Below, one piece after another: positions 50-12,910 of a stretch of DNA of 64,000 nucleotides. The number at the start of each line of letters is the position of its first letter. The first letter of the stretch is position 1. The notes beneath the pieces are model-generated. The model worked only from the letters and a program-made list of their open reading frames with translations. It was not told the DNA's origin and did not search any database. The translations under genes and the position numbers were made by a program. Source of the DNA: Roseibium polysiphoniae. Its GTDB lineage: Bacteria > Pseudomonadota > Alphaproteobacteria > Rhizobiales > Stappiaceae. The stretch lies in NCBI RefSeq assembly GCF_014842925.1, contig NZ_JACYXJ010000003.1, positions 639,344 to 703,343 of the forward strand, read 5' to 3'.

Positions 50-74
50 GGAACGATCAAGCTGTTCGTTCGTT
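50..74 (+). promoter_or_regulatory. EcfG-type promoter for the DUF1328 gene
   Basis: GGAAC at 50-54 and CGTT at 71-74 are separated by exactly 16 bases, the consensus of alphaproteobacterial EcfG sigma factors. The start codon it serves is 43 bases beyond the -10 box. Confidence 0.8.
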
Positions 75-117
75 GTGTGATTGTGATTTTTGAAATCTAC
101 AGACAGGAGTTGGTAAA

Positions 118-285
118 ATGTTGAGTTGGGCAATTCTATTCTTGGTCGTTGCCATTGTCGCGGCCGTTCTGGGTTTTGGTGGTATCGCTGGTACTGCCGT
201 TTCGATCGCCAAGCTGATCTTCGTGGTCGCGCTTGTTCTGTTTGCGATCTCCGCGCTTGTTCATCTGCTGCGCGGCCGGGCCTGA
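118..285 (+). CDS. DUF1328 family small membrane protein
   Basis: A 55-residue, almost wholly hydrophobic protein starting MLSWAILFLVVAIVAAVLGF, with two predicted membrane helices (about residues 3-25 and 30-50) separated by a glycine-rich turn, and ending in LRGRA. This is the length and pattern of the DUF1328/YtjA family of small inner-membrane proteins, whose function is unknown. CAGGAG lies ahead of the ATG. It has its own EcfG-type promoter and a strong terminator, so it is probably a single-gene stress-induced unit. The family assignment is recognised from sequence; the stress role is inferred from the promoter. Confidence 0.85.
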   Translation: MLSWAILFLVVAIVAAVLGFGGIAGTAVSIAKLIFVVALVLFAISALVHLLRGRA

Positions 286-301
286 TCCGAGCCATAATTT
301 G

Positions 302-336
302 AAAAAAGACCCGCAGCCTGTGCTGCGGGTTTTTTT
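302..336 (+). terminator. Rho-independent terminator
   Basis: Nine-base-pair stem ACCCGCAGC / GCTGCGGGT (309-317 and 322-330) with a CTGT loop, followed by seven T residues. It closes the DUF1328 unit. Confidence 0.9.
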
Positions 337-374
337 ATGGGCGCGTGTCAGTGGTGGAGGGAGAGGACGCCGGA

Positions 375-1673
375 CTAGACCTGTGCGAGCGTCTTGTTTG
401 CCGACGACAATGCCCTGGCGATTTCTTCGCGGTCCGCATGACTGATGAGTTTCTGACGGGCGTCGCTTGCGATGCGGCGGAGGTGCTTTTGAAGGATCGA
501 TTTGTGACGGGGCAGGCAGACGAGAGCCATGCGGCCGAGCGCCTGGATCAAACGCTCGCTCACAAGCACATTGCCGCACGAGGCCTGACGCAGTGGATTT
601 AGAGCCGCATCGAGAATGTCCGATACCGACAGGATGCTGAGCCAGACCCTTGGGGTGTCCTGCTTGTCGCGAATGATCGCCGTGGGGGCTCCGCGCTGTA
701 CGATACGGCCAAGCGATGCGGAGAGATGATCGATGGCACTGATCGCAGTGTAGGCGTCGTTGATGCCCGGTGACAGTGCGCGCAATGCAATTTCGACGTT
801 GAGATGGATCGAGAACTGAATGTCGCCCTCCGGCGCGCGGGCGTAACGTGTCTGAAACACCGTGCGCAGGGTCTCCGGATCGATCTCACGGCCCCCCTGG
901 TAGAGCCGCAGGATTGCCATGCCTTCGATGACATAACTACCGGGCTGGACCAGAACCTCGATAAAACCATCGTTTTCCTCTGCCAGCTCCATCAAACGCT
1001 TGCCGTTGATGGCAGTGACATAGCCGCTGGCGCTGGAGGTGACTTCCGTTCCTGCCGTTTCCGGAATTACCTTTCGGTCGTCCGCATTTTCTTCCGGCTC
1101 GGACCGCAGGAGCAGGTCAATCGCGGCTCTAAGCGATTTCTGGGTGCGGCCGATTTCATTGTCGACCATGATCCGCCGGGAGACGTCATTGACGAAATAA
1201 ACCAGCCAGAAAAAGCTGATCACGGCGAGCGTAATCGCTACTGCCACAGAAATATGCGGGACGGTTTCTTCGCCGACCACATAGAGGACGATCAGTGCGT
1301 AGAGAAAAGTCGCTCCCAGCAGACCGATGGTGATCTGATTGACGCGGTTGTTGGCGAAGGTTTCGAGCAGTCGCGGACCGATATTGCCCGCGGCTAGGGT
1401 GAAGACAACGAGCGTCAGCGAATAGACCAGACTGATCACCGACATCATTGCACCCGCAATGGTCGACAGAACGGACCTGGCTCCATCCGTACTGATGTCC
1501 AGGAACGACGATAGCGCTGACCCAGGTTCAATCACCCCTGACCTGTCTGCCCAGATGGCGATCAACGCCATGATCGCGCCGGAGAGTGCCAGCAAGACCG
1601 GAATGAAGAGAAAACCGCGAAAGAGCTTTTGCAGGAACTGGACCGATCCGCTCTCATGATAGCTGGCAGACAT
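375..1673 (-). CDS. DUF2254 family integral membrane protein
   Basis: About 432 residues. The N-terminal half carries four predicted membrane helices (first near residues 20-45, then around 65-95, 110-130 and 140-165), with the motif SLVYSLTLVVFTLAAGNIGP typical of DUF2254; the C-terminal half is soluble. The likely ATG at 1673 shares one base with the TGA of the upstream channel gene (TGATG), so translation is probably coupled; a TTG one codon earlier is possible. Function of the family is not established. Placed in an operon read from an EcfG-type promoter, it may be an envelope stress protein, which is inference. Confidence 0.8.
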   Translation of the reverse strand: MSASYHESGSVQFLQKLFRGFLFIPVLLALSGAIMALIAIWADRSGVIEPGSALSSFLDISTDGARSVLSTIAGAMMSVISLVYSLTLVVFTLAAGNIGPRLLETFANNRVNQITIGLLGATFLYALIVLYVVGEETVPHISVAVAITLAVISFFWLVYFVNDVSRRIMVDNEIGRTQKSLRAAIDLLLRSEPEENADDRKVIPETAGTEVTSSASGYVTAINGKRLMELAEENDGFIEVLVQPGSYVIEGMAILRLYQGGREIDPETLRTVFQTRYARAPEGDIQFSIHLNVEIALRALSPGINDAYTAISAIDHLSASLGRIVQRGAPTAIIRDKQDTPRVWLSILSVSDILDAALNPLRQASCGNVLVSERLIQALGRMALVCLPRHKSILQKHLRRIASDARQKLISHADREEIARALSSANKTLAQV

Positions 1674-11794: not shown

Positions 11795-11834
11795 AAAAAG
11801 CCGGCGCATTCCAAATGAATGCGCCGGCTTTTTT
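11795..11834. terminator. Bidirectional terminator
   Basis: AAAAAGCCGGCGCATTC and GAATGCGCCGGCTTTTTT form a very stable stem between the convergent otsA and 11855-12421 genes. Confidence 0.9.
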
Positions 11835-11854
11835 CTCGTCTGTTCAAATGAGCG

Positions 11855-12421
11855 TTAGCTCGCTTTGGAGACGCTTGTTACGGAGATCGGGTCACTGGCC
11901 GGGAAGCTGTCTTCAAGACCTTCTTCCAGTGCCTGCTCTTCGTCACTCTGTTTCGTCGCGTCGCCGCCATTCATCTGCTGAACGGTTTTCTCGGCCATGC
12001 GCCGGGTTTCCTTGAGCGCCTGGCTGCCGGCTTCCGTCGCCTTGTGAAACAGATCGTCGCGTGTCGCGCCGACGGTGCCGTTCTCCATTTTAGTGCGCGG
12101 CAAGAGGGCGCCGAGTGCAAAACCGGCCACGAGACCCATGGCGCCGACCGCGAAGGGATGTTCGCGCGCAAAGTCGGATGTCCGTGTCGCAGTCTGGCGA
12201 TAAGCCTTTTCAAGGTCATGACGTTTCTCGTCGACGACGCGGCTGGTTGTTTCGGCTGCTTCGTTCAAGGTCTGTGCTGCGCGCTCGCGCGACGACTTGA
12301 GCGCGGCCTTTGCCCGTTCCGCGGTGCCAGGTGTCCCGGACGCTTCCGGGTGCGGAGTTGGCGCGATGGTCCGGTTCTCGGGTGTTGTGGAGGGTTCCGG
12401 GGTGCGAATGTAATCAGACAT
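11855..12421 (-). CDS. Membrane-anchored ElaB/YqjD-like (DUF883-type) stress protein
   Basis: A 188-residue protein with an N-terminal disordered Pro/Thr-rich part, a central amphipathic helical region (about 35-95) and one membrane segment in HPFAVGAMGLVAGFALGALLP (about 90-112). This resembles the His-Pro-led tail anchor of ElaB/YqjD proteins. The C-terminus has EEGLEDSFPASDP, a motif I have seen in many small proteobacterial proteins without known function. Second gene after an exact EcfG promoter. Confidence 0.7.
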   Translation of the reverse strand: MSDYIRTPEPSTTPENRTIAPTPHPEASGTPGTAERAKAALKSSRERAAQTLNEAAETTSRVVDEKRHDLEKAYRQTATRTSDFAREHPFAVGAMGLVAGFALGALLPRTKMENGTVGATRDDLFHKATEAGSQALKETRRMAEKTVQQMNGGDATKQSDEEQALEEGLEDSFPASDPISVTSVSKAS

Positions 12422-12432
12422 TGTGGTCTCCT

Positions 12433-12858
12433 TTATTGGTCGGTGGAGGAAATGAAACGTGCGGCGAGAAAACCGATGGCCGCTGCCCCGATGGCAAGGG
12501 GGACAGGGTGTTTGCGAGCGGTTGCGCCAAGCGTTTCGATGGAAGCGGCTGCATCCGCTTCACGGATCTTGTGGGCCGACGCCGAGATATAATCGGCGGC
12601 CGTCACGCTCAGGGCCGCGGGAGCATCATTCTTGCCCGCCTCGCGCTCTCGCAGGGTGTGGGCAATCTCATCCAGAATCGAAGATGATCTGTCTTGCTGG
12701 CCCTCGACGAAGCGGAGTGACTCGCGCTTCAAAGTCTGGGCCAAGCCAAGCGCTTCAGAGCGGGCCGTTTCCAGAAGAGGGCCCAGGGGATCCGCGGACG
12801 CCTCCTGCGTATTCCAGTTTTCAGAGTGTGGTGATCGATGTGGAGCTGGGTCAGTCAT
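12433..12858 (-). CDS. Hypothetical alanine-rich membrane-anchored protein
   Basis: A 141-residue protein: polar N-terminus, long helical region with several Arg/Glu pairs, and a C-terminal anchor HPVPLAIGAAAIGFLAARFI (about 115-134). The His-Pro-led anchor parallels that of the next gene, which suggests both belong to the same ElaB/YqjD-like type. It is 11 bases from the downstream gene and 28 bases from an EcfG -10 box. Confidence 0.65.
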   Translation of the reverse strand: MTDPAPHRSPHSENWNTQEASADPLGPLLETARSEALGLAQTLKRESLRFVEGQQDRSSSILDEIAHTLREREAGKNDAPAALSVTAADYISASAHKIREADAAASIETLGATARKHPVPLAIGAAAIGFLAARFISSTDQ

Positions 12859-12885
12859 CTCTCTGTCCTCCTGTTGTGCCAGGTA

Positions 12886-12910
12886 AACGTTGGACGGGGA
12901 GAGAAGTTCC
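12886..12910 (-). promoter_or_regulatory. EcfG-type promoter of the 12858/12421 operon
   Basis: Minus-strand GGAAC (12910-12906), 16-base spacer, CGTT (12889-12886). Confidence 0.85.

Follow-up and report, generated by a model that had tools for sequence, protein, structure and literature searches.

Can the general stress response of a bacterium be gathered into one piece of DNA, and be inherited or lost as that piece? The sigma factor EcfG, the anti-sigma factor NepR and the anti-anti-sigma response regulator PhyR are said to occur in essentially all free-living Alphaproteobacteria (PMC3892343). In Roseibium polysiphoniae, a 64,000-nucleotide stretch of contig NZ_JACYXJ010000003.1 (positions 639,344 to 703,343 of the forward strand; hereafter the window) carries the genes for all three among repeated copies of the promoter motif GGAAC-N16-CGTT. 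We find that the window very probably contains the greater part of a block for the general stress response, in which ecfG, nepR, phyR and an HWE histidine kinase gene stand with about a dozen predicted EcfG targets; its phyR, csbD, DUF1328 and dps genes are present together or absent together in related genomes, and the whole is removable in one event. Switch genes and predicted targets lie within ~15 kb, and the block recurs in ten relatives.

Pfam families identify each of the regulators. The ecfG frame (3144–3698, minus strand) encodes sigma-70 regions 2 and 4 above cut-off (PF08281, PF04542). Its product is 68–81% identical to counterparts in nine genus relatives and 52–81% identical to the sigma factors adjoining phyR in relatives, and it is the single EcfG match in the window genome at E 1e-12. 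The nepR frame (3695–3916, minus; PF18557 above cut-off) overlaps ecfG by 4 bases, placing NepR in an operon with the sigma factor. Divergent from them, phyR (4128–4931, plus) encodes the sigma-like and receiver domains that mark the locus, with PF22029, PF22233 and PF00072 all above cut-off, and the HWE kinase with its PAS domains (PF07536, PF08448) is encoded at 6769–8598 (plus). An exact GGAAC-N16-CGTT site precedes nepR-ecfG (3993–4017, minus), as such sites precede the targets; it is strict in nine of ten orthologues and relaxed in the tenth, and autoregulation is predicted. A preliminary description of the window had grouped ecfG, nepR, phyR and the kinase with dps, otsA, a csbD-like gene and a DUF1328 gene, and the Pfam matches bear this out.

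The same description listed eight exact motif sites and three with one mismatch. Every one is present (the mismatched sites end in AGTT at 4026–4050 and in GGTT at 5041–5065 and 10170–10194), and the window contains no further exact match; all eight fall inside the block. Shuffled versions of the window (n = 100) averaged 0.77 exact sites with a maximum of 4, and none reached 8. Scanning spacers of 8–25 bases returned eight matches at 16 and 0–2 at other lengths, save for five at 23. One-mismatch matches numbered 31 across the window against 16.6 expected by chance, so the three listed sites count for little when taken alone. Just beyond the window's left edge is a ninth exact site (G000:C6:638957-638981, minus, where G000 is the window genome), before a PLDc_N gene that has a strict promoter in 9 of 11 Roseibium loci. 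Nine of the 50 exact sites in the genome (12 contigs, 4,582,172 bases) thereby fall in 13.3 kb (binomial p 3.3e-14), a density far above background, as the preliminary description had proposed. Open frames of at least 150 codons enclose 32 of the 41 exact sites outside the block, compared with three of the nine within it, although frames of this length may arise spuriously on either strand. About seven of the 41 have a plausible gene start downstream when judged by eye (L001, L009, L013, L017, L180, L186 and L194); the protein downstream of the L001 site resembles, again by eye, a DUF7218 protein of the block in genome G011, the Pfam scan having covered the G011 protein alone. Chance is the likely origin of most of these 41 sites.

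The cluster recurs across the genus. Counting N16 and N17 sites in ~20 kb round phyR at 11 Roseibium loci gave 81 sites, 6–9 per locus, against 4.6 in shuffled and 7 in reversed controls, with 71 sites at a spacer of 16 and 10 at 17. Ten of these loci share a core gene order; the eleventh, in genome G017, has related genes in a different order. The motif cluster is real, and the block is most likely under EcfG control.

Presence of the block varies between species. PhyR was found in 11 of 19 genus genomes (search at E 1e-25). Those 11 also have CsbD, DUF1328 and Dps, and all three are missing from the remaining eight (G001, G003, G005, G006, G009, G010, G012 and G013), which are 99–100% complete except for G001 at 90%. 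Mapped onto an rpoB tree of 18 genomes (all but G001, which had no rpoB match), the pattern needs five changes, at least three of them on starred branches. A scan of named genomes returned 40 loci, with R. limicola at 82%, R. aestuarii at 81% and the other 38 at 35% or less.

One of these changes could be read at the level of bases. G010, without the block, and G011, with it, are sisters with support of 100/100 in the rpoB tree. G011:C3:297205-317206 matches G010:C1:202600-222594 at 88%, and G011:C3:330261-347673 matches G010:C1:222586-240000 at 92%; the 13,054 bases between these syntenic flanks, which hold the whole block in G011, are missing from G010. In G011 the piece is bounded on each side by a copy of a 9-bp direct repeat. 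At the junction in G010, the first codons of a small block gene remain and run into a stop soon after; G011 has the gene whole, and homologues of it occur in seven other genus loci. Because G010 carries this truncated block gene, the difference between the sisters is the trace of a loss, for which recombination across the 9-bp repeat is the probable mechanism. Elsewhere, the left flank of the G007 block can be followed in G012 at 80% identity as far as 6,896 bases before phyR, beyond which unrelated genes follow, an arrangement compatible with a separate loss, though not a clean scar. Past that flank, G012:C9:1-7236 (L264) holds genes that resemble, by eye and without a family search, those of coenzyme F420 biosynthesis. 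No scar was found in G003, to which the sequence flanking the G007 block could not be mapped as one contiguous piece.

Since eight of 19 genomes lack phyR and the three other tested block genes, one of them through a clean 13-kb deletion, it is likely that Roseibium passes on or loses its general stress response as a single unit. With the switch and many of its targets contiguous, a single recombination event can remove the whole response. This absence of block genes together in related genomes, once by a single deletion, goes beyond what the preliminary description had claimed. Alongside the directly observed sites, gene content, conservation, joint absence and deletion scar, we propose a mechanism. 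Stress would activate the HWE kinase, which presumably acts on PhyR; phosphorylated PhyR would take NepR off EcfG; and the freed sigma factor would transcribe nepR-ecfG and the neighbouring targets from their own GGAAC-N16-CGTT promoters, whose dependence on EcfG is predicted. Clustering of the regulon may itself have been selected.

The promoters within the block differ in how well they are kept. That almost every transcription unit has a correctly placed EcfG promoter, as was first proposed, holds in the window's own sequence. Among orthologues it stands for csbD, PLDc_N, DUF1328 and nepR-ecfG, and for otsA and the gene at 12433–12858 in the three genomes that have them, and does not stand for phyR, the AI-2E and formate/nitrite transporters, the kinase or the dps unit; the original list of sites mixes conserved with lineage-specific ones. 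Best conserved is the exact site of csbD (6582–6606, minus), strict in 11 of 11 orthologues at 29–43 bases before the start; the CsbD-like protein is encoded at 6348–6551 (minus; PF05532). The exact site at 50–74 (plus), strict in 9 of 11 Roseibium loci, precedes the gene for a 55-amino-acid DUF1328 protein (118–285, plus; PF07043, E 2e-13). Exact sites also stand before genes for a 121-amino-acid protein (site 2622–2646, plus, strict in both of two orthologues; gene 2670–3035, plus) and a 141-amino-acid protein (site 12886–12910, minus, strict in three of three; gene 12433–12858, minus), neither with a Pfam match. Before otsA (10286–11725, plus; trehalose-phosphate synthase family, GT20, PF00982), the site at 10170–10194 (plus) is relaxed in the window genome and strict in two of three orthologues.

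Other sites are less well kept. The exact site at 2595–2619 (minus), before a formate/nitrite transporter family gene (1673–2575, minus; PF01226), is strict in one of five orthologues and so lineage-specific, and that before the kinase gene (6620–6644, plus, exact) is strict in two of 11. The dps unit is predicted to begin with a gene for a 64-amino-acid protein (9830–10024, minus; no Pfam match), with the Dps-like ferritin gene (9203–9718, minus; PF00210) downstream; its exact site (10085–10109, minus) is strict in one of eight orthologues of the 64-amino-acid gene and relaxed in one. The one-mismatch sites before phyR (4026–4050, plus; strict in one of 11, relaxed in two) and before the AI-2E family transporter gene (5041–5065, plus; strict in one of 11, relaxed in one; gene 5140–6234, plus; PF01594) are weak. 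The block further includes genes for a DUF2254 membrane protein (375–1676, minus; PF10011), a 151-amino-acid protein without a Pfam match (8672–9127, minus) and a DUF883-like protein below the Pfam cut-off (11855–12421, minus). At its right end are a 101-amino-acid protein and a holin-X family protein (13026–13720, minus; PF07332 for 13328–13720), with a strict promoter in two of three holin orthologues; to the left, the block extends beyond the window through PLDc_N and PRC-barrel proteins. One-mismatch sites ending in CATT stand at gene starts at 13807–13831 (minus), before the holin-X gene, and at −235 (plus) and −754 (minus) relative to the window; the three genes behind them are the holin gene, a PRC gene and a 70-amino-acid gene. 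CATT matches in the window are at chance level (one found, 0.66 expected).

Beyond the block, ~1.8–6.6 kb left of position 1 (L031, G000:C6), lie an asparagine synthase-like gene, a large GNAT/ATP-grasp-like gene and an M42-like peptidase gene, named without a family search, which resemble N-acetylglutaminylglutamine amide (osmolyte) genes; no strict site precedes the two of them that were checked. ABC transporter genes and a calcineurin-like phosphodiesterase flank the block on both sides (window 13875–16545; L031 ~7900–13202). The phosphodiesterase paralogues were considered as recombination arms and rejected, being only 26% identical to each other.

Related loci place the block in context. 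R. etli EcfG1 reads GGAAC-N16-CGTT (PMC3892343), the EcfG motif of Sphingopyxis granuli is the same (PMC7083833), and that given for S. melonis has a longer spacer, to GTT. Like the window, the ecfG1 region of R. etli (PMC3892343) and that of S. granuli TFA (PMC7083833) have a nepR-ecfG operon divergent from phyR, an HWE kinase gene nearby and GGAAC-N16-CGTT before nepR. Unlike these loci, the window holds many targets in the same 15 kb; the S. granuli regulon comprises 79 units, and the tag numbers of its csbD (SGRAN_3063) and ecfG1 (SGRAN_1161) lie far apart (PMC7083833). A literature search on the Roseibium/Labrenzia response, its loss, synteny or clustering, judged by titles and covering few subscription papers, returned no title describing the block or its loss.

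To set the Roseibium loci against the class, we searched 289 genomes and kept the 52 with PhyR at E 1e-40, excluding the window genome. These yielded 133 N16/N17 sites in 1.0 Mb near phyR against 14.1 in shuffled and 19 in reversed controls, with four genomes at zero and five stretches shortened by contig ends. Five order relatives with PhyR had 27 sites against 1.6 shuffled and one reversed, two of them reaching 8 and 9. Given this excess, clustering near phyR is a class-wide tendency with Roseibium at its high end, and the preliminary statement that EcfG regulons are usually scattered is too simple. Even so, the median per 20 kb is 7 in Roseibium and 2 in the class survey (p 4e-7, overstated since the genomes are related), with several surveyed genomes reaching 5–7.

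Similar gene sets also occur on plasmids. PhyR relatives (E 1e-40) occur on 23 of 72,556 plasmid records, and we inspected 11 of these 23 loci: ten from Rhodobacterales, nine of them annotated, and one from Sphingomonas. Eight of the nine annotated Rhodobacterales plasmids have at least one of dps, DUF1328, CsbD, PLDc_N, AI-2E, DUF2254, holin, PRC or a formate/nitrite transporter near nepR-ecfG-phyR; the R. litoralis plasmid has a YihY gene alone, the P. turbinis record carries no annotation, and the Sphingomonas record has no gene of any of the nine listed kinds. Strict N16/N17 sites number 46 over the 11 loci, compared with six for the reversed pattern, and two loci have none; the strain S2214 plasmid has stress-block genes and no strict site. 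Like the block of the window genome, loci such as those on D. shibae pDSHI02, Gemmobacter fulvus p2 and Roseicitreum antarcticum pRA01 combine nepR-ecfG-phyR with varying subsets of dps, DUF1328, CsbD, PLDc_N, AI-2E, PRC and holin genes; the Rhodobacterales loci differ from it in lying on plasmids, in gene order and in PhyR, which is 45–51% identical in the ten records. On pDSHI02 (L269, 2469–5886), a glucosylglycerol-phosphate synthase gene and partner genes of another osmolyte pathway adjoin the locus. Dshi_3834–3836 (kinase, sigma factor and hypothetical protein on a 153-kb replicon) are upregulated in starved D. shibae cells in light/dark versus dark (PMC4373377); their order and replicon suggest that they are the kinase, ecfG and nepR genes of the pDSHI02 locus. 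A literature search for Roseobacter plasmids with EcfG and PhyR, likewise judged by titles, gave no match.

Within the genus, G017 carries a second kind of stress block (G017:C3:2868000-2882000; L052, L053). Like the block of the window genome, it has dps, csbD, PRC, DUF1328 and ecfG near phyR, and six sites within ~20 kb. Unlike the window, it has two ecfG copies, effectors in another order and a PhyR of another clade, 53% identical and grouping with order relatives; joining it to the other ten in one clade is rejected (approximately unbiased (AU) test, p 0.003). The PhyR proteins of those ten fall together in a single clade, with a branching order similar to that of the rpoB tree. The main Roseibium PhyR falls outside the clade of six order relatives plus G017 (AU p 1e-52 for all as one clade); because sampling is thin and 25 of 67 rows with long or distant branches were dropped before the test, we draw no conclusion on its origin.

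Several observations weigh against a block that is EcfG-controlled and lost as a unit. Across the genome the motif shows no excess, with 50 exact sites as compared with 91 for the reversed control, and conservation is poor at the sites that precede phyR, AI-2E, the formate/nitrite transporter, the kinase and the dps unit. Joint presence and absence concerns four block genes only, phyR, csbD, DUF1328 and dps. Six of the eight genomes without phyR keep EcfG-like sigma factors, 34–40% identical to the window EcfG (best E 3.6e-28), and may have a remnant or different stress response; the profile of the PhyR sigma-like domain matches the same six, its best E there being 1.9e-15, while every PhyR-bearing genus genome gives 1e-22 or better. 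Neither match occurs in G010 or G013, and EcfG-like paralogues at 36–38% identity occur in block-bearing genomes too. Given these retained paralogues, what is lost is the PhyR-NepR-EcfG block rather than every related sigma factor; NepR had no search of its own. Finally, only the G010 loss is polarised by a scar, and the other changes could be gains.

Other explanations fare differently against the same evidence. That chance or base composition produced the motif cluster, without promoter function, could draw on the genome-wide count below the reversed control; we give it next to no credence and reject it as the source of the cluster, given the shuffles, the binomial p, the 6–9 sites at all 11 genus loci and the conserved positions before csbD, PLDc_N, DUF1328 and nepR. 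Reading of the motif by an extracytoplasmic function (ECF) sigma factor other than EcfG is very improbable. EcfG-like paralogues do exist in the genus, and RpoE-type −35 boxes also contain GGAAC (PMC8103513), but the motif surrounds nepR-ecfG and is absent along with it, N16-CGTT is the form reported for EcfG, and the window genome has one stringent EcfG match.

The remaining alternatives concern history. Ordinary neighbourhood conservation, with Roseibium at the high end and losses reflecting drift of a dispensable region, is possible although we do not favour it: the class-wide excess and the two order relatives with 8 and 9 sites speak for it, while the higher Roseibium median (with its overstated p) and joint absence in eight of 19 genomes through at least three changes, unexpected for a near-universal response (PMC3892343), speak against. 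We consider it unlikely that the block is a mobile island gained repeatedly, with the 9-bp repeat in G011 as a target duplication. Its presence in 11 of 19 genus genomes is patchy among close relatives, as expected of an island; the repeat, the plasmid-borne relatives (many of the 11 inspected loci have comparable gene neighbours) and the separate PhyR lineage of G017 also fit. Yet a block gene's opening codons survive at the empty site in G010, which makes that case a loss; the scan of 30 proteins from the block and its edges, a set short of every frame, gave no match to a transposase or integrase family; and the PhyR proteins of the ten main loci fall into a single clade that resembles the rpoB tree.

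Within the single genus Roseibium, some species have EcfG, NepR and PhyR and others do not, including a sister pair that differs by one 13-kb deletion. Such natural knock-outs provide a way to ask what the general stress response is worth in nature, and the block could serve to test whether shared gain and loss of the parts is what draws a regulon together round its regulator.

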